NCBI GenBank assembly: GCA_001592145.1
Contig: BCWJ01000003.1
Coordinates: 62,001 to 126,000 of the forward strand
Length of the DNA stretch: 64,000 nucleotides
From: Xylanimicrobium pachnodae JCM 13526 = NBRC 107786
Lineage (GTDB): Bacteria; Actinomycetota; Actinomycetes; Actinomycetales; Cellulomonadaceae
Direction: 5' to 3'
Position 1 is the stretch's first letter. Each line of letters begins with the position of its first letter. The notes beneath the pieces were generated by a model, which did no database searches, was not told the origin of the DNA, and worked only from the letters and a program-made list of their open reading frames with translations. Of the stretch, positions 20,276-52,918 are shown piece by piece. The translations under genes and the position numbers were made by a program.

Positions 20276-21526
20276 GTGAACAGCCTGATTGCTCGCCGCA
20301 TCGCGCCGGTCGTGGCACGGAGATCCGCGGCGACGCCGGTGCTGCTCCTGGAGGGCCCTCGCGGGGTCGGAAAGTCGACACTCCTGTCCGGCCTCGCGGA
20401 GTCGTCGCACGTTCCGGTGATCGATCTCGACCGGGAGGACTACCGGCAGATTGCCGTCAACAGTCCGGCCGCGGTCGTCGCCGAGGCCCCGCCCGTGGTC
20501 ATCGACGAGTATCAGCGAGTCCCTGCGCTGCTCGATGCCATCAAGGCGCGCCTGAACCGCGAGACGAGGGCAGGGATGTTCCTGCTGGCGGGGTCGGCGA
20601 GCTTCGACTCGCTCCCGCGAGGGACCCAGGCGCTCACCGGCCGGGTCCAGCGTGTCCCGGTGATGCCCCTGACGCAGACGGAGATCGACGGTACGGCGAA
20701 CAACCTCCTTGAGCGGGCCTTCGAAGGAGACGTCGCGCATACCGTCCGCCTGGTGAGCACCACGCGGGTCGAGTACGCCGAACGTGTCATGCGTGGTGGC
20801 ATGCCACTGGCGCTGGCTCACGAAGCAGAGGCGGACCGAGCGCGGTGGTTCGAGGCGCACGTCCGGCAGTCGATCGAACGAGACGCGGGTGAACTACGCC
20901 GCATCGGTCGCCGATCCGACCTTGGTGCCGTTCTGACCCGAACGGTCGGGCAGACGGCGAGCGTGCTCAACGTTGCCAAGGTGGCTTCCGATGTGTCCCC
21001 GTCGTGGGGCACGACATCGGCATATATCGAGCTCCTCGAGTCGCTGTTCCTGGTCGCGCGGCTCCCTGCCTGGGGGGTGACACTCCTTCCCCGGAGCGTG
21101 GAGGCGCCCAAGATCCACGTCGTCGACTCCGGGATCGGCGCGCACCTGCTGCGCCTCAGCGCTGCGAAGCTCAGCCGCCTCGACCCCTCGGCCATGACCG
21201 AGTTCGGGCACCTCCTGGAGTCCTTCGTGGTGCAGGAACTGATCCGTCAGTCCACCTGGATGGACGCTCCCGTGACGGCCGGGTACTGGCGCACTCGGGA
21301 CAATGTCGAGGTCGACCTGGTCCTGGAGCGCCACGACGGAGCGGTCGTCGCGGTCGAGGTCAAGGCCGGCGACCACGTCCAGAAGGGACAGGTCGCGCCG
21401 CTCCGGGCCCTGCGGGACCGTCTGGGGGCGTCGTTCGCGGCGGGCCTCATCCTCTACACGGGAGCTGCCGGGTACGAGGTCGACGATCGCATCCACGTGC
21501 TGCCGATCGAGCGTCTGTGGACGTGA
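20276..21526 (+). CDS. AAA ATPase with DUF4143 and nuclease-like C-terminus
   Basis: The 416-residue protein has an N-terminal P-loop GPRGVGKST (residues 27-35), a Walker B with VVIDEYQRVP, and a C-terminal DUF4143 part whose end looks like a PD-(D/E)xK core: D347 in EVDLVLE and E361-x-K363 in VAVEVKAG. Family members are widespread, often on mobile DNA, and their role is unsettled; defence or toxin-like roles have been proposed. The GTG start is set by TAGCAT; longer frames up to 19751 run through the SURF1 gene out of phase. By eye its codon use is less extreme in GC than its neighbours, consistent with transfer. Two relatives occur at 54383 and 60604. Confidence 0.85.
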   Translation: MNSLIARRIAPVVARRSAATPVLLLEGPRGVGKSTLLSGLAESSHVPVIDLDREDYRQIAVNSPAAVVAEAPPVVIDEYQRVPALLDAIKARLNRETRAGMFLLAGSASFDSLPRGTQALTGRVQRVPVMPLTQTEIDGTANNLLERAFEGDVAHTVRLVSTTRVEYAERVMRGGMPLALAHEAEADRARWFEAHVRQSIERDAGELRRIGRRSDLGAVLTRTVGQTASVLNVAKVASDVSPSWGTTSAYIELLESLFLVARLPAWGVTLLPRSVEAPKIHVVDSGIGAHLLRLSAAKLSRLDPSAMTEFGHLLESFVVQELIRQSTWMDAPVTAGYWRTRDNVEVDLVLERHDGAVVAVEVKAGDHVQKGQVAPLRALRDRLGASFAAGLILYTGAAGYEVDDRIHVLPIERLWT

Positions 21527-41535: not shown

Positions 41536-42213
41536 GTGATGACCCCGAACGCCGAGGTCGCCCTGCCCGTGCCCGTCGTGCTCGTCGACGATCACGCCAT
41601 GTTCCGGGCGGGCGTGCGCGCCTCCCTCGACGAGCGCGTGACCGTGGTCGGGGAGGCCGCCACCGTGGACGAGGCGGTGGCCGTGGTGCGTCAGACCCGC
41701 CCGCCCGTCGTGCTGCTCGACGTGCACCTGCCCGGCGGGACGGGCGGGGGCGGCGCCGAGGTGGTGCGGTTGTGCGCCGACCTGCTGGGGGAGACGAAGT
41801 TCCTCGCGCTGTCCGTGTCCGACGCCGCGGAGGACGTCGTGGCCGTCATCCGCTCGGGCGCACGCGGGTACGTCACCAAGAACATCTCGGCGCGTGAGCT
41901 GTCCGGGGCGGTCGTGCAGGTCGCGGGCGGGGACGCCGTGTTCTCGCCGCGCCTGGCCGGGTTCGTGCTCGACGCGTTCGGTACCGCAGCCGGTGAGGTC
42001 TCCGTGGCGGACGACGAGCTGGACCGGCTCTCGCGTCGCGAGCAGGAGGTCATGCGGCTCATCGCGCGCGGGTACTCGTACCGCGAGGTGGCCTCCGAGC
42101 TGTTCATCTCGATCAAGACCGTGGAGACCCACGTGAGCGCCGTGCTGCGCAAGCTCCAGCTCTCCTCGCGCTACGAGCTCACGCGCTGGGCGGCGGCACG
42201 CCACATCCTGTGA
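41536..42213 (+). CDS. LuxR/NarL-type response regulator
   Basis: The 225-residue regulator has a receiver domain with acidic pocket VLVDDH, phospho-acceptor Asp62 in VVLLDVHLPGG and Lys in VTKNISA, then a LuxR HTH (about 155-215, LSRREQEVMRLIARGYSYREV, IKTVETHVS). TGAGGAG serves either GTG 41536 (5 nt) or ATG 41539 (8 nt). It is the partner of the upstream PspC kinase. Targets may include the divergent PspC protein operon; that is inference. Its last 43 bp overlap the convergent cobA gene. Confidence 0.93.
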   Translation: MMTPNAEVALPVPVVLVDDHAMFRAGVRASLDERVTVVGEAATVDEAVAVVRQTRPPVVLLDVHLPGGTGGGGAEVVRLCADLLGETKFLALSVSDAAEDVVAVIRSGARGYVTKNISARELSGAVVQVAGGDAVFSPRLAGFVLDAFGTAAGEVSVADDELDRLSRREQEVMRLIARGYSYREVASELFISIKTVETHVSAVLRKLQLSSRYELTRWAAARHIL

Positions 42214-42962
42214 CCCCCGGCGACCTCGCCCACCCAGGCGGGGGCCAGGGTGACCACGTCGCCCACCACGACGACCGCCGGGTTGCGCACCCCCGCCTCG
42301 GCTGCCACCTGCGCGACCGTGCCGAGCGTCGCGATCGTGGTGCGCTGCCGCGGCCCGTACCCGTCCTCGACGATCGCCACGGGCGTGTCCTGCGGGCGGC
42401 CCCCCGCCACGAGCGCCCACGCCGTGTGGGCCAGCCCACCCACGGCCATGAGCAGCACCACCGTGTGCTCCGGGCCACCGGGGACCCCGCCCAGCAGGTC
42501 GGCGACGTCGTCGTGCCCGGAGATCACGGTGAACGCGCGCGCGACGCCGCGGTGCGTGAGCGGGATGCCGGCCGCGGCGGGCACGGAGACCGCGCTGGTG
42601 ACGCCCGGGACCACCTCGACCGGGACGCCGGCCGCGACGCACGCCGCGACCTCCTCGCCGCCGCGGCCCAGCACGTACGGGTCGCCACCCTTGAGGCGCA
42701 CCACCCGGCGTCCGGCGAGCGCGTGCGCCACGAGCAGCTCGTTGATCTGCGGCTGCCGCACCGGGTGGTGCCCCGGCTGCTTGCCGACGTCGACCACCGT
42801 GACCTCGCCGGACACGACGCGCGGCAGCGAGTCGAGCAGGGCGCGCGGGCCCAGGCGGTCGACGACGATGACGTCGGCCGCCTCTAGCAGGCGCAGGCCC
42901 TTGACGGTGATGAGGTCGGGGTCCCCGGGACCGCCGCCCACGAGCCACACCTTGCCGCTCAT
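42171..42962 (-). CDS. cobA: Uroporphyrinogen-III C-methyltransferase (SUMT)
   Basis: The 263-residue enzyme uses S-adenosylmethionine to methylate uroporphyrinogen III twice, giving precorrin-2 for siroheme. The family marks are VWLVGGGPGDPDLITVKGLR, the VVRLKGGDPYVLGRGGEE loop and VPGVTSAVSVPAAAGIPLTHRG. AGGAGG lies 6 nt before the ATG. It is the last gene of the sulfur operon and feeds the siroheme-dependent sulfite reductase upstream. No oxidase/ferrochelatase part (CysG-type fusion) is present. Confidence 0.95.
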   Translation of the reverse strand: MSGKVWLVGGGPGDPDLITVKGLRLLEAADVIVVDRLGPRALLDSLPRVVSGEVTVVDVGKQPGHHPVRQPQINELLVAHALAGRRVVRLKGGDPYVLGRGGEEVAACVAAGVPVEVVPGVTSAVSVPAAAGIPLTHRGVARAFTVISGHDDVADLLGGVPGGPEHTVVLLMAVGGLAHTAWALVAGGRPQDTPVAIVEDGYGPRQRTTIATLGTVAQVAAEAGVRNPAVVVVGDVVTLAPAWVGEVAGGHRMWRAAAQRVSS

Positions 42963-43046
42963 GCGCGCCTCCTGTCTGTGGTGTTTGCCGGTGCCCAGAA
43001 TCGCTGACGGATGTTTCCGGATGGTCACAACCCGTGGTCGGCGGCG

Positions 43047-43994
43047 TCACGCATCCTGGCGCAGCCCGCGGCGGCGCAGCACGGCCCGCTCCACGGGCGC
43101 GAAGACGACCAGCTCGATGGCGATGCCGACGGCGAGGATGAGCAGGATCGCGGTGAACACGAGGGCCATGTCCGCGAGCTGGCGGCCCTGGTCGAGGAAC
43201 TGGCCGAGGCCGAACCCGATGGAGCCGCCCACGGCGATGATCTCGGCGGCCATGAGGGAACGCCACGAGAACGCCCAGCCCTGCTTGAGACCGGCCAGGT
43301 AGCCGGGCAGCGCGGCGGGCAGCACGATCTCGGTGACCATCGCGAGCCGCCCCGCACCCAGCACCCGCCCCACCGACCGCAGCAACGGTGGCACCTGGTC
43401 CACCCCCGCGACGATGCCGTTGATGACGGACGGCACCGCACCCATGAGGACGACGAAGTAGACGGTGCCGTTGGACAGCCCGAACCAGATGATCGCGGCA
43501 GGCACCCACGCGACCGAGGGCAGCACCTGCAGCCCCGTGATGATCGGGCCGAACGCCACGCGCACCCACTTCACGCGAGCCACGACGATGCCGAGCGGCG
43601 TCCCGATGGCCACGGCGGCGAGGAAGCCGAGCACGCCACGTGACAGCGACGTCGTCAGCGCCTCCCACAGCGAGCCGTCCTGCGCGGCGCGGCCGACGGC
43701 CTGGGCCACCTCACGCGGGCCGGGCAGGTTCCAGATGGGCTGGACGCCCGACCACACCACGGCCTGCCAGATCACCAGCACGACGGCGACGGCGAGCAGC
43801 GGGGGCCAGACGCGACGCCAGGCGACGGCCATGGCGCCGGGGATCGCCCCGGCCGGGGTCTGGAGCGCGTCGAGGCCCGCCGTGACGTCGGTCCCCGTGT
43901 CGGCGGGCGGCTCGTGGGCCACGGCGTCGGCGATCCTGTCCTTGTCCTCGGTGGACAGGCCGGACGTGAACCAGGTGCGGGCGTCAGTGGGCAT
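43047..43994 (-). CDS. ABC transporter permease, SsuC/TauC type
   Basis: The 315-residue membrane protein has a cytoplasmic head of about 55 residues, longer than usual, and six helices. The EAA-loop region lies around VGRVLGAGRLAMVTEIVLPAALPGYLAG. The type serves import of sulfonates, taurine, nitrate or thiamine precursors. Operon context with sulfur genes favours alkanesulfonate or taurine. It overlaps the ATPase gene by 11 bp. Confidence 0.9.
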   Translation of the reverse strand: MPTDARTWFTSGLSTEDKDRIADAVAHEPPADTGTDVTAGLDALQTPAGAIPGAMAVAWRRVWPPLLAVAVVLVIWQAVVWSGVQPIWNLPGPREVAQAVGRAAQDGSLWEALTTSLSRGVLGFLAAVAIGTPLGIVVARVKWVRVAFGPIITGLQVLPSVAWVPAAIIWFGLSNGTVYFVVLMGAVPSVINGIVAGVDQVPPLLRSVGRVLGAGRLAMVTEIVLPAALPGYLAGLKQGWAFSWRSLMAAEIIAVGGSIGFGLGQFLDQGRQLADMALVFTAILLILAVGIAIELVVFAPVERAVLRRRGLRQDA

Positions 43995-44808
43995 GGCGGC
44001 TGATCTCCTCGCGCAGGCGGGCCGTGATCTCGCCCGTCAGGGCCACGGGGTCGGTGGTCCCGGCGTCGCCGACCACCCACTCGTGCACCACGCGGCCCGG
44101 GCGGGAGGACAGCAGGAGTACCCGCTGCCCCAGGCGCACCGCCTCGCGCACGTTGTGGGTCACGAACACGATGGTCCGGCCGGTGGCGCGCCAGATGCGC
44201 TCCAGCTCGTCGTGCAGCAGGTCGCGGGTGATGGCGTCGAGCGCCGCGAACGGCTCGTCCATCAGCAGCAGGTCGCGGTCCTGGGCGAGCGCGCGGGCCA
44301 GGGCGACGCGCTGACGCATGCCGCCCGAGAGCTCGTGGGCGCGCTTGTCGGCCGCGCCGCTGTCACCCCGGCGGGCCTCGCGCCGCCCCGCGGGGGAGCG
44401 GAGGGCACCCGGCGGCGGCCCGAGCCGCACCAGGTGGAGCAGCTCGGCGGCCCGCGTGCGGCGCTCCTCGCGGGGCACGCCGCGCAGCTTGAGCGCCAGC
44501 TCCACGTTGCGTGAGGCGGTGAGCCAGGGCAGCAGCGCCGACTCCTGGAACATGAGGGCGGCCGGCTCGGCCACCACGTCGCCCGTCGTGGCAGGTTCCA
44601 GCCCCGCGAGCAGGCTCAGCAGGGTCGACTTGCCGCACCCGGACGCGCCGATCAGGCAGACGAGCTCGCCGTGCGCGATCTCCAGGTCGACGCCGTCCAG
44701 CACGGGTGGTCCGTCGCCGAACCGCTTGCCGACGCCGGTCAGGCGCACGGCGGGCGCGGGGTCCCGCTCGGCGGTGGTGGCCGCGGCGGCGGACGTGACG
44801 GTGGTCAT
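43984..44808 (-). CDS. ABC transporter ATP-binding protein, SsuB/TauB type
   Basis: The 274-residue ATPase has Walker A GASGCGKST (about residues 56-64), signature LSGGMRQR, Walker B LLLMDEPFAALD and switch His in VTHNVRE. A Gly/Arg-rich insert of about 25 residues just before the signature is longer than in typical SsuB. GGAG lies 7 nt before the ATG. It works with the permease and binding protein on either side. Confidence 0.93.
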   Translation of the reverse strand: MTTVTSAAAATTAERDPAPAVRLTGVGKRFGDGPPVLDGVDLEIAHGELVCLIGASGCGKSTLLSLLAGLEPATTGDVVAEPAALMFQESALLPWLTASRNVELALKLRGVPREERRTRAAELLHLVRLGPPPGALRSPAGRREARRGDSGAADKRAHELSGGMRQRVALARALAQDRDLLLMDEPFAALDAITRDLLHDELERIWRATGRTIVFVTHNVREAVRLGQRVLLLSSRPGRVVHEWVVGDAGTTDPVALTGEITARLREEISRHAH

Positions 44809-44812
44809 GGTT

Positions 44813-45877
44813 CTACTCCTTGCCGAGGCCGGCTGCCGAGACCGGGTCCTGGCCGTCGGCCGTCAGGACCGCGTTGAGCGGGCGCAGGTCGTAGATGCCG
44901 GTCAGGTCGGCATCCTGGGTCGTGCCGGCCGCCACCCCGTGGTCGATGACCGTCTGGAGGGTGCCCGCCAGCGGGTCCACGGTGAACTCGATGTTCGAGA
45001 ACGCCCGGTCCAGGACCTCCTGCGGCAGCGGCTTGCCGGACGCGTCGGCGATCAGGTCGTTGACGAGCTTCGACGACCCGGTCGGGTCGTCCGTCAGCGC
45101 CTTGATGGCCGCGAGCTCACCGCGCAGCAGCGCCTCGACGGTCTGCGGGTGCTCCTCCAGGAACTCGGTGCGCACCACCACGTTCGTCGTGACGAACTTG
45201 CCGTCGGGCCACAGGTCCTTCTCGTCGACCAGCACGTGCGCCCCGGCTTCGAGCACCAGGCGCGACGCCCACGGCTCGGGCAGCCACCCGCCGTCCAGGT
45301 CGCCGCTGCGGAAGAGCTGCAGGGTCTGGGCGTTGTCGGTGGGGGTCACCGCGACGTCACCGCCGCCCTTGAGGTCGGCGGTGTACCCCTGGTCGGCCAG
45401 CCACACCCGCAGCGCGACGTCCTGCGTGTTGCCGAGCTGCGGCGACGCGATCTTCGTGCCCTTGAGGTCCGCCGGGGAGTCGATCCCGTCCCGCACCACG
45501 AGCGCGGCACCGCCCGAGGCGGCCCCGGCGACGATCTTGAGGGCCTCGCCGTGCGACTTCACGAACCCGTTGATCGCGGGGTTCGGGCCGATGAAGGCGA
45601 CGTCGATCGCCCCCGCGTTGAGCGCCTCGAGCTCGGCCGGGCCGGCGTTGAACACCTCCGTCGTGAGGGCGGTGTCGCCCAGCTCCTTCTCGAAGTAGCC
45701 GCCGCCCACGCCCACCAGGGCCGCCGCATGCGTCACGTTCGCGAAGTACCCGACGCGGACCTCGTCCGCCGGGCCGGTCGTGGCGTCCCCCGCCGCCGAC
45801 GACGGGCCGGCGCACGCCGCCATCGCCGCCACGAGCGCGGTGGCGAGCAGGGCGGCGGGCAGGCGGGTCGTCTTCAT
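44813..45877 (-). CDS. ABC transporter substrate-binding lipoprotein, SsuA/TauA type
   Basis: The 354-residue lipoprotein has a signal ending in AMAAC (Cys near residue 22) and a periplasmic-binding-like fold with VRVGYFANVTHAAALVGVGGGYFEKEL and the VWLADQGYTADLKGGGDV region. This group binds sulfonates, taurine or related small anions. AGGAG lies 8 nt before the ATG. The gap to cysN is 87 bp and holds one GGTCTCGACAGG element. Confidence 0.9.
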   Translation of the reverse strand: MKTTRLPAALLATALVAAMAACAGPSSAAGDATTGPADEVRVGYFANVTHAAALVGVGGGYFEKELGDTALTTEVFNAGPAELEALNAGAIDVAFIGPNPAINGFVKSHGEALKIVAGAASGGAALVVRDGIDSPADLKGTKIASPQLGNTQDVALRVWLADQGYTADLKGGGDVAVTPTDNAQTLQLFRSGDLDGGWLPEPWASRLVLEAGAHVLVDEKDLWPDGKFVTTNVVVRTEFLEEHPQTVEALLRGELAAIKALTDDPTGSSKLVNDLIADASGKPLPQEVLDRAFSNIEFTVDPLAGTLQTVIDHGVAAGTTQDADLTGIYDLRPLNAVLTADGQDPVSAAGLGKE

Positions 45878-45964: not shown

Positions 45965-47329
45965 TCAGCCGGCCGCCGTGACCATGCCGGCGGCGAGCGT
46001 GGCGCCGTCGTCGGGGTCGATGAGCAGGAACGCGCCGGTGCGGCGTGCCCGTGCGTACGGCTCGACGGGCACGGGTGCCGCGAGGCGCAGTACGACCCGG
46101 CCCAGGTCGTTGAGGTCCAGCCTGTCGGTGGCGGTGAGCCCGACGGTGTCGCCGTGCAGCGAGTCCAGGTCGATCCGGCCTGGGATCTCACGCACCTGCG
46201 CCTTGACCGTGCGGGTGCCGTGCTTGAGCAGCACGGTGGTGCGGGCGGCCAGCGGGCGGTCCGCGAGCCACGCGAGCGTCGCGGTGACGTCCTGCGTGGG
46301 GACAGGGGCGTCGTCGGCCGCGGCGAGCAGGTCGCCGTGCGCGACGTCGACGTCGTCGGCCAGGCGCAGGGTGACCGACTGCGGCGCGTACGCCGCCGGG
46401 AGCGTGTCCCGTCCCGCGGCCAGCGAGTCCGCCGTGTCGATCCCCACCACCGTGGTGCGGCGCCCGCTCGGGAGCACGACGACGGCGTCCCCCGGCCGGA
46501 CCACCCCGGCGGCCACCTGGCCGGCGTAGCCGCGGTAGTCGCGGAACAGGTCGTCGTCCGTGCGGGGACGCACCACGTGCTGCACCGCGAGGCGGAAGGA
46601 CCCCGACTCGGCGGAGTCGGCCGCGGGCAGCGTCTCCAGCAGCTCCAGCAGCGTCGGACCGTCGTACCAGGGCGTGTTCCCCGACGGGTCCACCACGTTG
46701 TCACCGCGCAGCGCGGACACCGGGACGGCGTGCACGGCGTCCTCGGCCACCCCGAGTGCGCCGGCGGCACGCCGCAGGTCGGCGGCGATCTGCGCGAACC
46801 GGTCCTGCGACCAGTCCACCAGGTCGATCTTGTTGACCGCGACCACCACGTGCGGCACCCGCAGCAGGGCGGCCACGGCCAGGTGGCGGCGGGTCTGCTC
46901 CAGCAGCCCCTTGCGCGCGTCCACGAGCAGCACGACGACGTCCGCCGTCGACGCCCCCGTGACCGTGTTGCGCGTGTACTGCACGTGGCCGGGGCAGTCG
47001 GCGAGCACGAAGCTGCGCCGCGCCGTGGCGAAGTAGCGGTACGCGACGTCGATCGTGATGCCCTGCTCCCGCTCGGCGCGCAGGCCGTCCGTGAGCAGCG
47101 CCAGGTCGGTGACGTCGTACCCCTTGTCCCGGCTGACCCGTTCGACGGCGTCGAGCTGGTCGGTCAGCACCGACTTGGAGTCGTACAGCAGGCGGCCCAC
47201 CAGGGTGGACTTGCCGTCGTCGACGGACCCGGCCGTCGCGATGCGCAGCAAGGTGGTGGTCTCGACAGGCCCCACCGCCCGGATCGGCTCGGTCACCGGC
47301 ACGGTCGCTTCTTCGGTCAGGGTGCTCAT
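45965..47329 (-). CDS. cysN: Sulfate adenylyltransferase large subunit (GTPase)
   Basis: The 454-residue EF-Tu-like GTPase drives ATP sulfurylase. Motifs are G1 GSVDDGKSTLVGRLL, G3 DCPGHVQYTRN and G4 NKIDLV, with beta-barrel domains after about residue 250. There is no C-terminal APS kinase (CysC), which fits direct use of APS by the reductase in this operon. ATG 47329 overlaps the cysD stop by one base. Bases 47258-47277 carry a GGTCTCGACAGG repeat inside the N-terminal coding part. Confidence 0.96.
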   Translation of the reverse strand: MSTLTEEATVPVTEPIRAVGPVETTTLLRIATAGSVDDGKSTLVGRLLYDSKSVLTDQLDAVERVSRDKGYDVTDLALLTDGLRAEREQGITIDVAYRYFATARRSFVLADCPGHVQYTRNTVTGASTADVVVLLVDARKGLLEQTRRHLAVAALLRVPHVVVAVNKIDLVDWSQDRFAQIAADLRRAAGALGVAEDAVHAVPVSALRGDNVVDPSGNTPWYDGPTLLELLETLPAADSAESGSFRLAVQHVVRPRTDDDLFRDYRGYAGQVAAGVVRPGDAVVVLPSGRRTTVVGIDTADSLAAGRDTLPAAYAPQSVTLRLADDVDVAHGDLLAAADDAPVPTQDVTATLAWLADRPLAARTTVLLKHGTRTVKAQVREIPGRIDLDSLHGDTVGLTATDRLDLNDLGRVVLRLAAPVPVEPYARARRTGAFLLIDPDDGATLAAGMVTAAG

Positions 47330-48240
47330 CAGAAGTAGCCCTCCTTCTTGCGGTCCTCCATGGCGGCCTCGGACATGCGGTCGTCGGCGCGCGTGGCACC
47401 GCGCTCGGTGATGCGGGTGGCGGCCACCTCGGCCAGGACGTCGTCGACCGTCAACGCGATCGACCGGACCGCGCCCGTGCACGACATGTCGCCCACCGTG
47501 CGGTAACGGACCTTCTCGGCGCGCACGCTCGCCCGCTCCGCGGCGGTGCGCGGCTGCGCGTGCGGACCGAGCGCGAGCAGCATGCCGTCCCGGTCGAACA
47601 CCTCGCGCTCGTGCGTGTAGTACAGGCTGGGCAGGTCGATGCGCTCGCGAGCGATGTAGCGCCACACGTCGAGCTCCGTCCAGTTGGACAGCGGGAACAC
47701 GCGCACGTGCTCGCCCGGCCGGTGGCGCCCGTTGTACAGGTTCCACAGCTCGGGGCGCTGGTTGCGCGGGTCCCACTGCCCGAACTCGTCACGCAGCGAG
47801 AAGATGCGCTCCTTGGCCCGCGCCTTCTCCTCGTCGCGCCGGCCGCCCCCGAACACGGCGTCGAACTTCCCGGCCTCGATCGCGTCGAGCAGCGGGCGGG
47901 TCTGCAGCGGGTTGCGGGTGCCGTCGGCGCGCTCCCGCAGGCGGCCGTCGTCGATGTAGTCCTGCACCTTCGCCACCTCCAGACGCAGCCGCAGGCGGTC
48001 CACGGTGCGGTCGCGGAACGCGAGCACCTCCGGGAAGTTGTGCCCCGTGTCCACGTGCAGCAGCGGGAAGGGGACGGGCGCCGGGGCGAACGCCTTGACC
48101 GCCAGATGCAGCATGAGCATCGAGTCCTTGCCGCCCGAGAACAGCAGCACAGGCCGTTCGAGCTCGGCGGCCACCTCGCGGATGATGTGGATCGCCTCGC
48201 TCTCCAGGGCGTCCAGCAGGGAGAGAGTGGAGGTGCTCAT
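47329..48240 (-). CDS. cysD: Sulfate adenylyltransferase small subunit
   Basis: The 303-residue PP-loop protein makes APS from sulfate and ATP with CysN. It shows the SGGKDSMLMLHLA pyrophosphatase loop, VDTGHNFPEVL, and the CysD tail DRMSEAAMEDRKKEGYF. Length is normal. It is coupled to cysN (TGATG) and lies 25 bp after the APS reductase gene. Confidence 0.97.
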   Translation of the reverse strand: MSTSTLSLLDALESEAIHIIREVAAELERPVLLFSGGKDSMLMLHLAVKAFAPAPVPFPLLHVDTGHNFPEVLAFRDRTVDRLRLRLEVAKVQDYIDDGRLRERADGTRNPLQTRPLLDAIEAGKFDAVFGGGRRDEEKARAKERIFSLRDEFGQWDPRNQRPELWNLYNGRHRPGEHVRVFPLSNWTELDVWRYIARERIDLPSLYYTHEREVFDRDGMLLALGPHAQPRTAAERASVRAEKVRYRTVGDMSCTGAVRSIALTVDDVLAEVAATRITERGATRADDRMSEAAMEDRKKEGYF

Positions 48241-48265: not shown

Positions 48266-49186
48266 TCACGTGTGCAGCCCGCACTCGGTCTTGTCGAAGC
48301 CGGACCAGCGGCCCGCGCGGGGGTCCTCGCCCGGGGCGACGCGCCGCGTGCAGGGCGCGCACCCGATCGACGGGTAGCCGTCCTCGAGCAGCGGGTTGAG
48401 CGGCACGCCGTGCCGGGCCGCGTAGCCGTACAGGTCGTCGCTGCTCCACGCGGCGAGCGGGTTGACCTTGATCAGCCCGTTCTTCTCGTCGAACGTGACC
48501 AGCGGCGTGTGCGTGCGGGTCGCGGCCTCGTCGCGGCGCACGCCCGTGAACCACACCTCGTACCCGGCCAGGGTGCGCCGCAGCGGCTCGACCTTGCGCA
48601 TCGCGCAGCATGCCGCGGGGTCGCGGGACCACAGATCCTTGCCGTGCTTCGCGTCCTGCTCGGCGACGGTGAGCTCGGGGAGCACGTCGACCACCGTGAC
48701 GTCCATCGTGGTGGCGACCGCGTCCCGCGTGCCCAGCGTCTCCGGGAAGTGATAGCCGGTCTCCAGGAACAGCACGTCCACGAACGGGAGCGCGCGCGCC
48801 ACCACGTGCGGCAGCACGGCGTCCGCCATCGAGCACGCGACGGCCGCCAGGTCGCCGCCCAGCTCGCGTGCCACCCAGGCGACCACCTGCTCGGCGCTCG
48901 CCTCGCCGTCGGTGCTGTCGGGGCCGACGCCGGAGCCGCCCAGCTCGGCTGCGCCGCGGGCTGCGATCGCCCGCAGCTCGTCCGCCGACCGCTTCACGGC
49001 GCCGCGGGCCGCGCGCGCCTCGGCATGTGCGGCGCGGGCCGCCTGACGGGCCAGGAACCGCTCGCGCGGGCCGCCGGTGCCCATGGTCGAACCGCTCACC
49101 GTGGTTGTGTGCGGTGACGGCTGCGGTTCCGCTGCGGGCGCTGGCTCGTTCCTCGCCCCCACCCTGCGCTGCACCTCCGCCGTCAC
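48266..49186 (-). CDS. cysH: APS reductase (assimilatory, 4Fe-4S type), CysH family
   Basis: The 306-residue enzyme reduces activated sulfate to sulfite. It has the cluster cysteines CCAMRK and CAPCTRR, and the catalytic tail KTECGLHT. The paired cysteines mark the APS-using form rather than E. coli-type PAPS reductase. The N-terminal 45 residues are a variable extension. The GTG start overlaps the sulfite reductase stop by 4 nt, and GAGGAGG lies 7 nt upstream. Confidence 0.95.
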   Translation of the reverse strand: MTAEVQRRVGARNEPAPAAEPQPSPHTTTVSGSTMGTGGPRERFLARQAARAAHAEARAARGAVKRSADELRAIAARGAAELGGSGVGPDSTDGEASAEQVVAWVARELGGDLAAVACSMADAVLPHVVARALPFVDVLFLETGYHFPETLGTRDAVATTMDVTVVDVLPELTVAEQDAKHGKDLWSRDPAACCAMRKVEPLRRTLAGYEVWFTGVRRDEAATRTHTPLVTFDEKNGLIKVNPLAAWSSDDLYGYAARHGVPLNPLLEDGYPSIGCAPCTRRVAPGEDPRAGRWSGFDKTECGLHT

Positions 49187-50916
49187 CGCAGGGCCTCCTC
49201 GTCCGCGCGGTGCGCCCACTGGGCGAACGTCTCGCCCGCCTCGCGGTCGGCGGCGAACCGGCGCACCAGCCGCTCCACGTAGTCGGCCACGTCCTCAACC
49301 GGGATCTTCAGGCCGCGCACCGTGCGCCCGAACCCGGGCTCGTCCCGGTTGCTGGTGACCAGGCCGCCGCCCAGGTGTACCTGGAACCCGGGCACCTGCT
49401 GGGCCTCGTCACCCGTGCCGATGGTGATGAGCTGGCCCTTGAGGCCGATGTCCACCGTCTGCGTGCGCGCGCACGCGTTGGGGCAGCCGTTGATGCCGAT
49501 CGCGATGGGTGCGTCGAGCGTGGCCAGCACGTCGGCGGCGCGCTCCTCGAGCTGGGCGATGGCCTGCGCGGCAGTGTCCTTGGTGTTGACGATGGCGAGC
49601 TTGCAGAACTCGATGCCCGAGCAGGCCAGCGTGGACTGCCGCACCAGGGACGGGGTGGCGGTCAGGCCCAGGGGTTCCAGGCCGGCCACCAGGTCGTCCA
49701 CCCGGTCGGCGGGCACCCCGAGGATCACGATCTTCTGGTGCACGGTGAACCGGGCCGCCTCCGCTCCCACCGACTCGATGAGGTCCGCGAGACCGGTCAG
49801 GGTTCCCCCGCCCACGCGCCCCACCACGGGGGCGGCGCCCACGTAGAACTTGCCGTCCTTCTGCTCGTGCACGCCCACGTGGTCGCCCGTCTGGGTCGGC
49901 TGCGCGGGGGCCGGGCCGTCCGCCAGGGCGTAGCCCAGGTACTCGGTCTCGAGCACCTCACGAACCTTCGCGGGGCCCCAGTCGGCCAGCAGGAACTTCA
50001 GGCGGGCCTTGTTGCGCAGGCGCCGGTAGCCGTAGTCGCGGAACAGGCGGACCACGCCGTGCCACACCTCCGGTGCCTGCTCGGGGGTGGCGAACGCTCC
50101 GAGCCGCTCGCCCAGGCGCGGCACCGTGGCGAGCGACCCGCCCACCCAGACGTCGTAGCCCGGCCCGAGCTCGGGGTGCACCACACCCACCAGCGCGACG
50201 TCGTTGATCTCGTGCACGACGTCGAGGGACGGATGCCCGGTGACCGCCGTCTTGAACTTGCGCGGCAGGTTGGAGATGTCCTCCGTGCCCAGCCAGCGCT
50301 CCTTGATCTCCCGGATCACGGGGGTCGGGTCGATGATCTCGTCCTTGGCGATCCCGGCGACCGGCGAGCACAGGAACCCGCGGGGGGAGTCGCCGCACGC
50401 CGTCGTCGTCTGGAGGCCCACGGACTCCAGACGACGCCAGATCTCGGGGACGTTCTCGATCTCCACCCAGTGGTACTGGAGGTTCTGACGGTCGGTGAGG
50501 TCGGCGGTGCCGCGCGCGAAGTCCGTCGAGATGCTGCCCAGCACGCGCAGCGCGGCAGGGTTCAGCGCGGCGCCGTCGGACCTCACCCGCATCATGAAGT
50601 AGCGGTCCTCCAGCTCCTCCGGCTCGAGCGTGGCGGTGCGGCCGCCGTCGATCCCGGGCCTGCGCTGCGTGTACAGACCCCACCAGCGGAACCGGCCGTG
50701 CAGATCGTCCGACGTGATCGAGTCGAAGCCCTCGCGGGAGTAGACGTTCTCGATCCGTTCGCGGACCCGCAGCGGGTGCGACTCGCCCTTGAACACCTCG
50801 ACGGAGTTGAGCGGCTCGTGACCGTCAACCTTCCACTGGCCGTTCGACCGGCCGGGGCGCGGTGTACGGATGGTGGAGTGGACCGGTGCCGAGGGGTTGT
50901 GGCTGGTGATCGTCAT
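49183..50916 (-). CDS. sirA: Ferredoxin-sulfite reductase (siroheme and 4Fe-4S)
   Basis: The 577-residue enzyme reduces sulfite to sulfide with ferredoxin. The siroheme/cluster ligands are in TLACSGIEFCKLAI and INGCPNACAR, and the siroheme-arginine region is in DLTDRQNLQYHWV. It resembles mycobacterial SirA. A nitrite reductase of the same fold is the alternative, but the sulfur operon makes sulfite the likely substrate. It lies 6 bp after the YeiH-like gene. Confidence 0.93.
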   Translation of the reverse strand: MTITSHNPSAPVHSTIRTPRPGRSNGQWKVDGHEPLNSVEVFKGESHPLRVRERIENVYSREGFDSITSDDLHGRFRWWGLYTQRRPGIDGGRTATLEPEELEDRYFMMRVRSDGAALNPAALRVLGSISTDFARGTADLTDRQNLQYHWVEIENVPEIWRRLESVGLQTTTACGDSPRGFLCSPVAGIAKDEIIDPTPVIREIKERWLGTEDISNLPRKFKTAVTGHPSLDVVHEINDVALVGVVHPELGPGYDVWVGGSLATVPRLGERLGAFATPEQAPEVWHGVVRLFRDYGYRRLRNKARLKFLLADWGPAKVREVLETEYLGYALADGPAPAQPTQTGDHVGVHEQKDGKFYVGAAPVVGRVGGGTLTGLADLIESVGAEAARFTVHQKIVILGVPADRVDDLVAGLEPLGLTATPSLVRQSTLACSGIEFCKLAIVNTKDTAAQAIAQLEERAADVLATLDAPIAIGINGCPNACARTQTVDIGLKGQLITIGTGDEAQQVPGFQVHLGGGLVTSNRDEPGFGRTVRGLKIPVEDVADYVERLVRRFAADREAGETFAQWAHRADEEALR

Positions 50917-50922
50917 GACTTC

Positions 50923-52065
50923 CTAGAGGTTGACGTGCGAGAAGATCAGGCTGGCGAGGGCCAGGCCCGCGACGAGGTTGAAGACGGCCGCCGAACCGAA
51001 CAGGACCAGGGGACGCCAGCCCGCCTCGCGGATGCCCGAGACCTTGAACTCCAGGCCGATCGAGACGAACGCGATGACGAAGAAGATCGTGCTCAGGGCC
51101 TTGAGGGTCGCGATGTCGGGGGCGGCGGCGTCGGACCCGACGGACGTGACGTAGAGCGTCGCGACGAGCGACGCGAGCACGAACCCGAGCACGAACTTCG
51201 GGAACCGGTGCCACAGCTCGGAGGCCTTCGGCGCCGCGGCACCGCCGGTGCGGTCCACCTTGAACGCGAAGTACAGCGTGAGCAGGAACGCGACGACGCC
51301 GATGAGCACGTTCTGCGAGCTCTTGACGATCGCGGCCACCTGGAGCACGTCGTCACCGGCGATGGCGGCCGACGCCGTGACGGCCGCCGTGGTGTCGATG
51401 TTGCCGCCGATCCAGGCACCCGCGACGGCGGGACTCAGGTTCAGCGCCTCGGCGAGCGGCGGCAGGATGAAGATCGACGGCAGGGCGAAGATGATCACCA
51501 GGCTGGCCGCGTAGGCGAGCTGCTCCTTCTTCGCCTGGACGGCGCCGGCCGCGCTGATCGCCGCGCTGACACCGCAGATCGAGACGGCGGACGAGAGCAG
51601 GGCGCGCAGCCTGTCGTCCACGCCCAGCCTGCCGCCCAGCCACCAGGTGAACCCGAAGACCAGGGTGATGAGCAGGACGGCCTGCAGGATGCCGGGGCCG
51701 CCCGCCTTGCCGATCGAGGCGAAGTTGATGGTGGCGCCGAGCAGCACCAGCCCGAGCTTGATGAACAGCTCGGTGCGGAACGCGGCCGCGAGCCGGTCGC
51801 GCACCCCGGCGAGCGAGAGGGCCAGGTTGCCGAGCAGGCCCAGCGCGATGGCGTAGACGGGGTACTCGATGCTCGCTGCGACGCCCGCGAGCGGCGTGTC
51901 CTCCAGCCAGACGGGGACGCCGTCGGCGAGGAAGCGGGCCAGCCACGCCAGGGCGAGCAGGATCACCAGTCCGGCGACGGCGTAGGCGGGTCCGGGGCGG
52001 GCGCCGGCCTGGACGACGGAGTTCTCGAGGGAGGCCGGGGTCGCGGTCGTGGCTTCGGCGCTCAT
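50923..52065 (-). CDS. YeiH-family membrane protein (UPF0324, putative sulfur-anion exporter)
   Basis: The 380-residue protein has about ten membrane helices. Family marks are KLGLVLLGATINF, SAVSICGVSAAISAAGAV, GAWIGGNIDTTAAVTASAAI and IVKSSQNVLIGVVAF. Family members are annotated as putative sulfate exporters, without direct proof. In this operon it could clear sulfite or another sulfur anion. ATG 52065 overlaps the stop of the 54-residue gene by one base. Confidence 0.9.
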   Translation of the reverse strand: MSAEATTATPASLENSVVQAGARPGPAYAVAGLVILLALAWLARFLADGVPVWLEDTPLAGVAASIEYPVYAIALGLLGNLALSLAGVRDRLAAAFRTELFIKLGLVLLGATINFASIGKAGGPGILQAVLLITLVFGFTWWLGGRLGVDDRLRALLSSAVSICGVSAAISAAGAVQAKKEQLAYAASLVIIFALPSIFILPPLAEALNLSPAVAGAWIGGNIDTTAAVTASAAIAGDDVLQVAAIVKSSQNVLIGVVAFLLTLYFAFKVDRTGGAAAPKASELWHRFPKFVLGFVLASLVATLYVTSVGSDAAAPDIATLKALSTIFFVIAFVSIGLEFKVSGIREAGWRPLVLFGSAAVFNLVAGLALASLIFSHVNL

Positions 52066-52229
52066 CAGGCGGCCAGCCCTTGCGGCAGGAGCGAGAACAG
52101 GCCCAGGGCGACGAGGGCCAGGCCGACGACGGTGGCCAGCCAGTCCTCCGACAGGTGGATGCGACGGGCGGAGGCGACGGAGACCTCGGGGGTCTCGACA
52201 GGTTCAGGGTGGGCGGGCTGCGCTGACAT
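52065..52229 (-). CDS. Small membrane protein (54 residues) of the sulfur operon
   Basis: The product has a 30-residue polar N-terminus ending ARRIHLSEDW and one hydrophobic helix (LATVVGLALVALGLFSLLP). AGAGGA lies 9 nt before the ATG, and its stop is fused to the YeiH start (TGATG), so it is very likely translated. It may be a small partner or assembly helper of YeiH. Alternatively it is a split-off first helix of that transporter; the SEDW-LATVVGLALVALG pattern resembles a transporter N-terminus. Bases 52191-52212 carry a GGTCTCGACAGG repeat. Confidence 0.75.
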   Translation of the reverse strand: MSAQPAHPEPVETPEVSVASARRIHLSEDWLATVVGLALVALGLFSLLPQGLAA

Positions 52230-52303
52230 GGGACGGTTCCTCTTCCGGGTGCGCGGGGTGGACGTGTGCGGCGGGGCGGGCGGCGCCCACCGGCCACCCC
52301 CGG

Positions 52304-52375
52304 TCAGAGGTGCACGCGGACGTCGCCCGGGAGACACATCTCGGGGGCGCAGTGGCGCATGCAGGTGCGAGGCAT
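52304..52375 (-). CDS. Cys-rich leader peptide (23 residues) upstream of the sulfur operon
   Basis: On the minus strand the ORF begins MPRTCMRHCAPEMCLPGD and ends VRVHL, with Cys at residues 5, 9 and 14. It lies 74 bp before the first operon gene and just after a promoter-like pair. No ribosome site precedes the ATG, but the CACGCT box 7 nt upstream fits a leaderless start. Between its stop and the next gene, GGGGTGG and CCACCCC (52255-52261 and 52294-52300) could pair. Cys-codon uORFs that control sulfur genes by attenuation are known in mycobacteria. The attenuator role here is inference. Confidence 0.6.
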   Translation of the reverse strand: MPRTCMRHCAPEMCLPGDVRVHL

Positions 52376-52382
52376 GCCGTAC

Positions 52383-52411
52383 AGCGTGAACGGTGATCTA
52401 TCAATGGGCAA
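52383..52411 (-). promoter_or_regulatory. Promoter of the sulfur operon, with palindrome in its spacer
   Basis: The minus strand has TTGCCC (52406-52411), a 17-bp spacer and CACGCT (52383-52388), then 7 nt to the leader ATG. The spacer holds TGAT-CT-ATCA (52394-52403), a possible operator. Confidence 0.4.
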
Positions 52412-52423
52412 GACGATGCCTAT

Positions 52424-52435
52424 ATGTGCTCACAT
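52424..52435. promoter_or_regulatory. Candidate regulator site upstream of the sulfur operon
   Basis: ATGTG-CT-CACAT is a perfect palindrome 12 bp upstream of the -35 element, a position suited to an activator. Confidence 0.35.
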
Positions 52436-52537
52436 GGTGGACAGCGGACGCTCGCGCATCGTGGGTTCGTGACTCGGGGCGTCGGGCGGGGCGAGGCTCG
52501 GCGCCAACGAAATGACAGCGATGGCAGGTCCGCCCGG

Positions 52538-52543
52538 TAGCCT
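52538..52543 (+). promoter_or_regulatory. Leaderless -10 box of the gene at 52550
   Basis: TAGCCT, then 6 nt, then the GTG start. Confidence 0.55.
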
Positions 52544-52549
52544 GCCCGG

Positions 52550-52918
52550 GTGAACTTCCTGTACAACGCGTTCGTCGTGCTGCACTTCGTCGGCTGGGCC
52601 ATCGTGCTCGGCGGGTACCTCGCCTCCCTGAAGACCCCTGGCCTCTACCGGGGCGTCTTCCACGGCGCCGCCACGGCCCTGGTCTCCGGCATCGTCATGA
52701 TGGGCCTCATCGAGTCCGGCACCGCCGGCCCCGCGTGGGTCGAGCGTCCCTGGCTGATCACCAAGCTGTCGATCGCGCTGATCATCACCGTGCTCGCGTT
52801 CTTCGCCCGCCGCCAGGGCCGCAAGGCCGACAACGGCACGGGGGCCGTGACCCCCGCCCTCAAGCACTCCATCGGGGTGCTCGTGCTGGTCAACATCATC
52901 GTCGCCGTCTTCTGGTGA
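52550..52918 (+). CDS. Small four-helix membrane protein, unknown function
   Basis: The 122-residue protein has four hydrophobic segments (about 5-25, 38-52, 68-86 and 104-121) and the conserved-looking LHFVGWAIVLGGY and WLITKLSIALIITVLAF stretches. It resembles the small integral membrane proteins sometimes labelled Fe-S-like in actinobacterial genomes, but no cysteines are present. GTG 52550 follows a leaderless promoter box. Confidence 0.75.
   Translation: MNFLYNAFVVLHFVGWAIVLGGYLASLKTPGLYRGVFHGAATALVSGIVMMGLIESGTAGPAWVERPWLITKLSIALIITVLAFFARRQGRKADNGTGAVTPALKHSIGVLVLVNIIVAVFW

Follow-up and report, generated by a model that had tools for sequence, protein, structure and literature searches.

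A putative cysteine-sensing leader peptide with a conserved UGU codon and a spaced hairpin upstream of a sulfur-assimilation operon in Xylanimicrobium pachnodae

How might the sulfur-assimilation genes of Xylanimicrobium pachnodae be adjusted to the supply of cysteine? In the stretch of DNA analysed here (the window, 64,000 nucleotides), a ten-gene minus-strand operon encodes a small 54-aa protein, a YeiH-type exporter, sir, cysH, cysD, cysN, three SsuA-type ABC genes and cobA, and is preceded by a short ORF with three Cys codons. The first-pass annotation proposed that ribosomes stalling at these codons would tie operon output to Cys-tRNA, with a GGGGTGG/CCACCCC pair as the switchable stem. 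We consider it very probable that the ORF is a leader that senses cysteine, namely a cysteine attenuator of what is called below the yeiH type. The sensing role is well supported by comparison, since the leader is conserved in the genus, Cys leaders precede sir throughout the family and a further candidate lies before cysK, all of which makes a regulatory function likely; the proposed switch stem is not conserved. The features of the leader region are the following.

52406 to 52411, minus strand: -35-like TTGCCC, 17 nt before the -10-like box
52383 to 52388, minus strand: -10-like box CACGCT, 7 nt ahead of the ATG
52304 to 52375, minus strand: leader ORF, MPRTCMRHCAPEMCLPGDVRVHL and a stop codon, read from the sequence, with homologues in G002, G003, G006 and G010
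52334 to 52336, minus strand: Cys14 codon TGT, conserved and probably the sensing codon
52318 to 52328, minus strand: 5' arm of hairpin P1, GGGCGACGTCC, starting 5 nt after TGT, one more outer C-G pair possible
52278 to 52288, minus strand: 3' arm of hairpin P1, GGGCGCCGCCC, 10 pairs and one A-C mismatch, with similar flanks in relatives

The operon itself reads as follows.

52065 to 52229, minus strand: first gene, 54-aa small membrane-protein-like ORF before yeiH, no NCBIfam match, a similar small gene in relatives
50923 to 52065, minus strand: YeiH-family putative sulfate exporter (TIGR00698, E 3.3e-25, below the curated cut-off)
49183 to 50916, minus strand: sulfite/nitrite reductase sir, NirA/CysI-like (best E 2.7e-86, all models below cut-offs)
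48266 to 49219, minus strand: cysH, (P)APS reductase (NF002537, above cut-off)
47329 to 48240, minus strand: cysD, sulfate adenylyltransferase subunit (TIGR02039, above cut-off)
45965 to 47332, minus strand: cysN-like sulfate adenylyltransferase GTPase subunit, start estimated, from reading the translation only
44813 to 45877, minus strand: SsuA-family substrate-binding protein (TIGR01728, above cut-off)
43984 to 44808, minus strand: ABC transporter ATPase of sulfonate/taurine/nitrate type (models below cut-offs)
43047 to 43994, minus strand: ABC transporter permease (models below cut-offs)
42171 to 43028, minus strand: cobA/cysG-type uroporphyrinogen-III C-methyltransferase (TIGR01469, above cut-off)

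The 54-aa protein carries an EDWxAT motif and a hydrophobic stretch and is possibly a small partner of the YeiH exporter.

The basic layout had been described correctly: a 23-residue minus-strand ORF with Cys at 5, 9 and 14 is present at 52375-52304, and 74 nt separate its stop from the first operon gene (start 52229). The Cys codons (5, TGC; 9, TGC; 14, TGT) are spaced and form no adjacent run, again as had been noted. The two promoter-like boxes are also where they were placed, and the whole arrangement (TTGC.., 17 nt, CA...T, 7 nt, start) is found again in G002, G003 and G006 of the same genus; G010 retains the -10-like box at the same distance and lacks the -35-like TTGC.. with its 17-nt spacer, which is seen also in G181 from another genus. 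A strict sigma-70 scan at the window leader found no promoter. On the basis of the conserved spacing between box and start codon, the mRNA is probably leaderless, with its 5' end at or beside the leader ATG. Two ATAG boxes (52398-52401 and 52420-52423, minus strand) lie 22 bp apart and flank the -35 box; their spacing is kept in G002, G003 and G006, not in G010, and they may be a regulator site that acts besides the leader.

Taken alone, such an ORF is weak evidence, because the window holds two ORFs on both strands together that have the same box spacing, at least two Cys codons and TGT as the last of them; it is position and conservation that carry the case. The other one lies at 20991-21080 on the plus strand; no further ORF of the window combines a -10-like box at 6-8 nt from its start with at least two Cys and TGT last. 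Searches of other kinds returned nothing for the leader: the peptide matched no NCBIfam model, a scan of 51900-52700 against Rfam gave no match up to E 10, distant blastn with 301 bases around the leader found no match among plasmids, and the motif GARATGTGTCTC followed by GGGCG occurs in its own genome at one place, that of the window, with no second copy.

The genus group comprises 11 genomes, five of which have sir at E ≤1e-60 (the window genome, G000, and G002, G003, G006, G010), and a homologous leader is present in all five. Their peptides are MPRTCMRHCAPEMCLPGDVRVHL (G000), MPRMCTCRPAMEMCLQGGARMHL (G002), MPRMCFRRPTPEMCL (G003), MPRMCPRPCRPETCL (G006, with a GTG start) and MSRTRPRSTRATCP (G010). 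Start codon, TGT and -10 spacing are conserved in 5/5, G006 having GTG as its start. Conservation of the Cys codons, to which the first-pass annotation had tied its proposal, was uneven: the Cys14 position is TGT in all five, Cys5 is retained in four (absent from G010) and Cys9 in two. The ORF stops one codon past the Cys14-position Cys in G003, G006 and G010; in G000 and G002 the triplet corresponding to that TAG is CCG or CAG, and beyond the codon that follows Cys the ORF continues for another eight. The leader of G006 stands directly before sir, without yeiH.

Similar leaders occur well beyond the genus. A search of 221 family genomes gave yeiH at E ≤1e-60 in 16, and by reading the upstream sequence we saw a short Cys leader before the small gene preceding yeiH in 15 of them; the exception was G037, where none was seen. 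Adding G006 and G220, whose leaders immediately precede sir, gives a yeiH-type set of 17 leaders from five genera. Their last Cys codon is TGT in 17/17. Twelve of the leaders come from outside the genus, nine with one or two Cys codons and three with three, and peptides of g16 go down to MQIFRTSQVCP in length; few or spaced Cys codons are thus typical of the yeiH type, as far as its candidate members can be read. We also scanned 80 named yeiH loci outside the family (up to 700 nt upstream, Cys required in the last 8 residues). This picked up yeiH-type leaders at two Cellulomonas loci, L056 and L060; L053 and L054 also have one, missed by the demand for Cys in the last 8 residues, and others may have been missed likewise. 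Matches at L057, L092, L093 and L104 were taken as chance.

A second design precedes sir. This gene was found at E ≤1e-100 in 160/221 family genomes; 111 upstream regions were taken (31 + 80 loci), and six were dropped (L050, which runs off the contig end, and the genus loci L022, L023, L024, L026 and L140, where yeiH lies in between), which leaves 105. To count as a leader, an ORF had to span 8-50 codons, to have a (T/C)ANNNT box 6-8 nt ahead of its start and to carry two or more Cys among its final 12 codons, a stricter definition under which the window leader itself does not fall. Such a Cys leader, probably leaderless, is present in 90/105 regions, compared with 1/105 on the reverse strand and 2, 0, 0, 1 and 0 in five rounds of shuffling. 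The 15 misses include L046, whose Cys codons lie farther from the stop, and L198, whose box has a different first base; the remaining ones showed no clear leader. Many of these peptides are polycysteine, for example MTTAAHRLLVTTRHEMPACVRRSMRSCLCCCR with its stop. The stop codon is TAG in 15/17 yeiH-type leaders and TGA in 87/90 sir leaders (two of the 90 being yeiH-type). There are, on the reading of these candidate leaders, at least two Cys leader designs in the family. A candidate anti-SD element, GTCGGTCnTC, occurs in 23/50 of the sir type by exact match, and the RNAalifold consensus of 50 aligned sir-type leaders showed little structure. Between leader and sir, the sir-type loci L027-L051 share a conserved block, GGCGCGCGCCGTCGGTCCTC...GCTGAG...CGTCGTCGCGCGTCC, with a possible anti-SD GGTCCTC opposite GAGGAC near the start codon. 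Loci L193-L212 (mostly genus g4, three g5) show a third leader type before sir, with a GTG start and mostly a CANNNT box, for example MNLPGNRRLCRCCRAAAVPCACCPRNR.

Outside the family, a sir leader was found in 9/12 other actinobacteria (Mycolicibacterium, Nocardia and Rhodococcus among the matches) and, at the level of the order, in 14/78 regions (1/78 on the reverse strand; L274 and L234 dropped as too short). Sir leaders are patchy in the order, and the TGT rule described below is looser there. Five loci of family f3 (L289-L291, L256 and L231) have sir leaders that end in VMCCQA or VMCCRA, a further form of Cys leader.

The most regular property of all these leaders is the identity of the last Cys codon, which is TGT in 88/90 family sir leaders. 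Counted back from the end, TGT makes up 54/90 of the second, 46/89 of the third, 37/83 of the fourth, 9/55 of the fifth and 15/30 of the sixth Cys codons; because of these lower shares, only the last codon can be said to follow the rule strictly. Over all Cys codons of the 90 leaders TGT outnumbers TGC by 255 to 198, while the sir coding regions of 29 loci have no TGT and 148 TGC, and the nine operon genes of the window that were counted have none and 19. Other two-fold codons ending in C or T are used in the same sir leaders with C 299 times and with T 7 times (Fisher exact test, p ~2e-64, relatedness ignored). Grouped by genus, the last codon is TGT throughout in 17 of 19, varies in one and is TGC in one. 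The last codon is TGT in 9/9 sir leaders of the other actinobacteria, and at order level TGT ends 10 leaders and TGC 4. UGU is read through wobble pairing by a single tRNA-Cys, whose anticodon is GCA, and such reading presumably slows decoding.

What follows the TGT codon also recurs. The GGGGTGG/CCACCCC pair of the first-pass annotation exists, but only in G000 and G002, and it would compete with P1, the conserved hairpin, which is another one and begins about 5 nt after TGT. A P1 stem of 9-11 pairs starts 5 nt after the last TGT in 16/17 yeiH-type leaders (G006 is without it), the 11-nt window having been placed there by hand; one or two extra outer pairs are possible in G000, G124, G128 and G130. 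With the position left free, a sliding window located the strongest downstream complement at +8 (counted from the T of TGT) in four genera, g1, g16, g5 and g25, and at +7 in the fifth, g6. The mean over genera at +8 is -21.6 kcal/mol for yeiH-type leaders; the 90 sir leaders, drawn from 20 genus groups and including two of the yeiH type, served as control, and have no peak at +8 and a mean of -12.0. A P1 common to all Cys leaders was accordingly rejected, single sir-leader groups being variable (g16 is best at +4).

Leader by leader, the +8 window ranks first among 55 in 11/17, second or third in four, tenth in G010 and 29th in G006. Shuffled downstream sequence did as well in 0-3 of 200 trials for eight leaders and in 7-18 of 200 for six; for the genus members the numbers are 10/200 (G000), 9 (G003), 35 (G002), 81 (G010) and 191 (G006). 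P1 is strong in four other genera and weak in the window genus. In the window species alone P1 is marginally better than chance, so the case for it rests on comparison, and on other genera more than on the window genus. The arms vary by genus (GGGCGACG/CGTCGCCC, GCCGAGAGG/CCTCTCGGC, GCCGGGAGG/CCTCCCGGC and GGCGGCGGCC/GGCCGTCCGCC), with both-sided changes of pair type at 8/11 positions. Own arms pair at 8.5/9 and arms from different genera at 5.6/9, figures that are inflated since partner arms were chosen by complementarity; the arms of g6 and g16 are interchangeable, and the two g5 forms are connected via G-U pairs. From the end of the 3' arm to the first gene start there are 38-47 nt, or 70-78 nt in g5 (G006 excluded).

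These elements can be put together as follows. The promoter would start the mRNA at or next to the leader ATG, and ribosomes would begin on the leader without delay. With ample Cys-tRNA they would pass the conserved UGU and leave, P1 would fold and the sulfur operon would stay low. When Cys-tRNA is short, a ribosome would wait with UGU in its A site. The leading edge of a ribosome lies ~12 nt ahead, and that of the waiting one would cover the base of P1, which would stay open and allow the operon to be expressed. Because a ribosome so placed would cover this base, P1 is most simply taken as a repressing structure, a role we favour slightly over its absence. A UGU that is read by wobble and nearly absent from genes would sharpen the response. 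In a stronger version, cysteine would be sensed by nothing more than one rare, wobble-read UGU lying about 5 nt from a hairpin, and UGU at the sensing position would be a general actinobacterial rule; we put this forward tentatively, as something we incline slightly to doubt. A U-tract intrinsic terminator was looked for in 51950-52600, and none was found.

How P1, or another structure, would act on the operon admits several readings. RBS sequestration is the proposed mode of action of mycobacterial polycysteine leaders, and here too an RNA pairing might hide the RBS of the first gene until a stalled ribosome frees it; two papers state, in the parts drawn on here, that the Cys leaders of M. 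smegmatis act on translation. In the window the pairing would join CACCTCTGACCGGGGGTGG with CCACCCC...CCGGAAGAGG, and the free fold of the leader does pair CCTCT and its neighbours with the RBS side, the fold of G002 being alike. Yet this pairing is seen in G000 and G002 only and conflicts with P1, and when ribosome masking was simulated for 17 leaders, the predicted access to the RBS rose in some species and fell in others, with no consistent effect; we regard this reading as unlikely. Control by Rho appears unlikely as well. Release of the leader ribosome would let a C-rich stretch before the first gene recruit Rho, and such a stretch does follow the 3' arm of P1 in relatives, but C-rich sequence is common at the present GC content, and if stalling opens P1, the amount of C-rich RNA left exposed would rise, not fall. 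Rho was suggested for mycobacterial cys leaders (Seliverstov 2005, PMC1262725), where the part of the paper used here terms the prediction rather weak.

P1 might also be a mechanical brake: by keeping ribosomes in place while UGU occupies the A site, it would let one codon suffice to sense Cys-tRNA. Its spacer resembles that of frameshift-stimulating stems and is 5 nt (arms as defined) in 16/17 leaders of five genera, and the prevalence of one or two Cys codons in yeiH-type leaders of other genera (9/12) would suit such a device. The 3' arm, however, is made ~30-100 nt later, when the first ribosome may already have passed, and a brake of this kind seems to us distinctly improbable. Even the leader itself could be a chance ORF, with control of the operon left entirely to a DNA-binding regulator whose site is the ATAG repeats flanking the -35 box. 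The repeats are conserved, 22 bp apart, in G000, G002, G003 and G006, and one of the two leader-like ORFs of the window does lie elsewhere, yet a chance ORF would hardly keep its start codon (GTG in G006), TGT and -10 spacing in all five genus members, or belong to a family-wide pattern with clean controls; we give this explanation very little credence. The preferred reading remains a cysteine attenuator, with P1 as its candidate repressing stem.

A further leader candidate stands before cysK of the window genome (L308), where an SD-led ORF, MSVAVASSPTATSCTPACRPSRSRSLACR, with TGT as its last Cys codon lies ~190-280 nt upstream. For comparison, matches were obtained in 36 of 39 relatives, and 30 of the loci were read, with no promoter-box criterion and with counts that have no shuffle control. 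Under these terms an ORF with at least two Cys in its last 12 codons precedes cysK in 19/24 loci of the family and 2/6 outside it, and the last Cys codon is TGT in 20/21. Within the genus the leader is present in 5/10 and was not found in the five other members. The pattern suggests a set of operons that may be sensed through ribosomes.

Cys leaders in M. smegmatis were reportedly tested by Canestrari in 2020. That work is cited in PMC9094748, PMC13236596 and PMC9031893. Cys leader peptides in actinobacteria were predicted in 2005 (PMC1262725), and polycysteine leaders were seen by ribosome profiling in mycobacteria (Shell 2015, PMC4633059). Like the latter, as far as the sections of that paper used here describe them, the window ORF is short and Cys-rich and directly precedes sulfur genes; it is probably leaderless, and stalling on Cys codons is what we propose for it. 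Mycobacterial-type sir leaders differ, in the accounts drawn on here, in their adjacent Cys runs, a recurring HVD.KR.C stretch and a reported action on translation, whereas the window leader has a single conserved TGT, Cys codons that do not adjoin, a hairpin at an almost constant distance and another peptide. The sir leaders of mycobacterial kind in 9/12 other actinobacteria share TGT as last Cys codon with it. The leaders of the 2005 prediction are likewise candidates before actinobacterial cys operons and without obvious terminators; they come, in the part of that paper considered, from Mycobacterium, P. acnes and B. longum, have Cys runs near the stop and show no conserved terminator-like hairpins.

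The uORFC-8-2 motif before cysS in Rhodobacterales (PMC8632094) also combines a Cys-codon uORF with structured RNA and proposed ribosome-mediated attenuation, but, according to the portion of that report used here, its Cys codons are tandem, UGC dominates, an intrinsic terminator with a U run is present and the phylum is another. The family's own sir-type polycysteine leaders are similar to the window leader in being probably leaderless, ending in TGT and standing before sir; they differ in the peptide, in TGA rather than TAG stops and in the absence of a mean hairpin peak at +8. A reannotation of Streptomyces (PMC8079986) lists eight leader peptides, none assigned to cysteine in the part consulted. 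The principle, cysteine attenuation by a leader peptide, is known from mycobacteria, and the layout with one codon and a spaced hairpin differs. In the open literature we found no report of a UGU rule or of such hairpin geometry in Cys leaders.

It is an old question whether leader peptides pick between synonymous codons that a single tRNA decodes in order to tune how sensitively an amino acid is sensed, and the UGU rule bears on it. A T-to-C change at codon 14 alters the codon without altering the peptide, and offers a sharp and cheap test of this question. The nearly fixed spacing of the hairpin provides a simple model for how one codon can suffice. For the family, which is high in GC and includes Cellulosimicrobium and Cellulomonas, the candidate leaders described here would extend cysteine attenuation to a further branch of the actinobacteria, in at least two leader designs.
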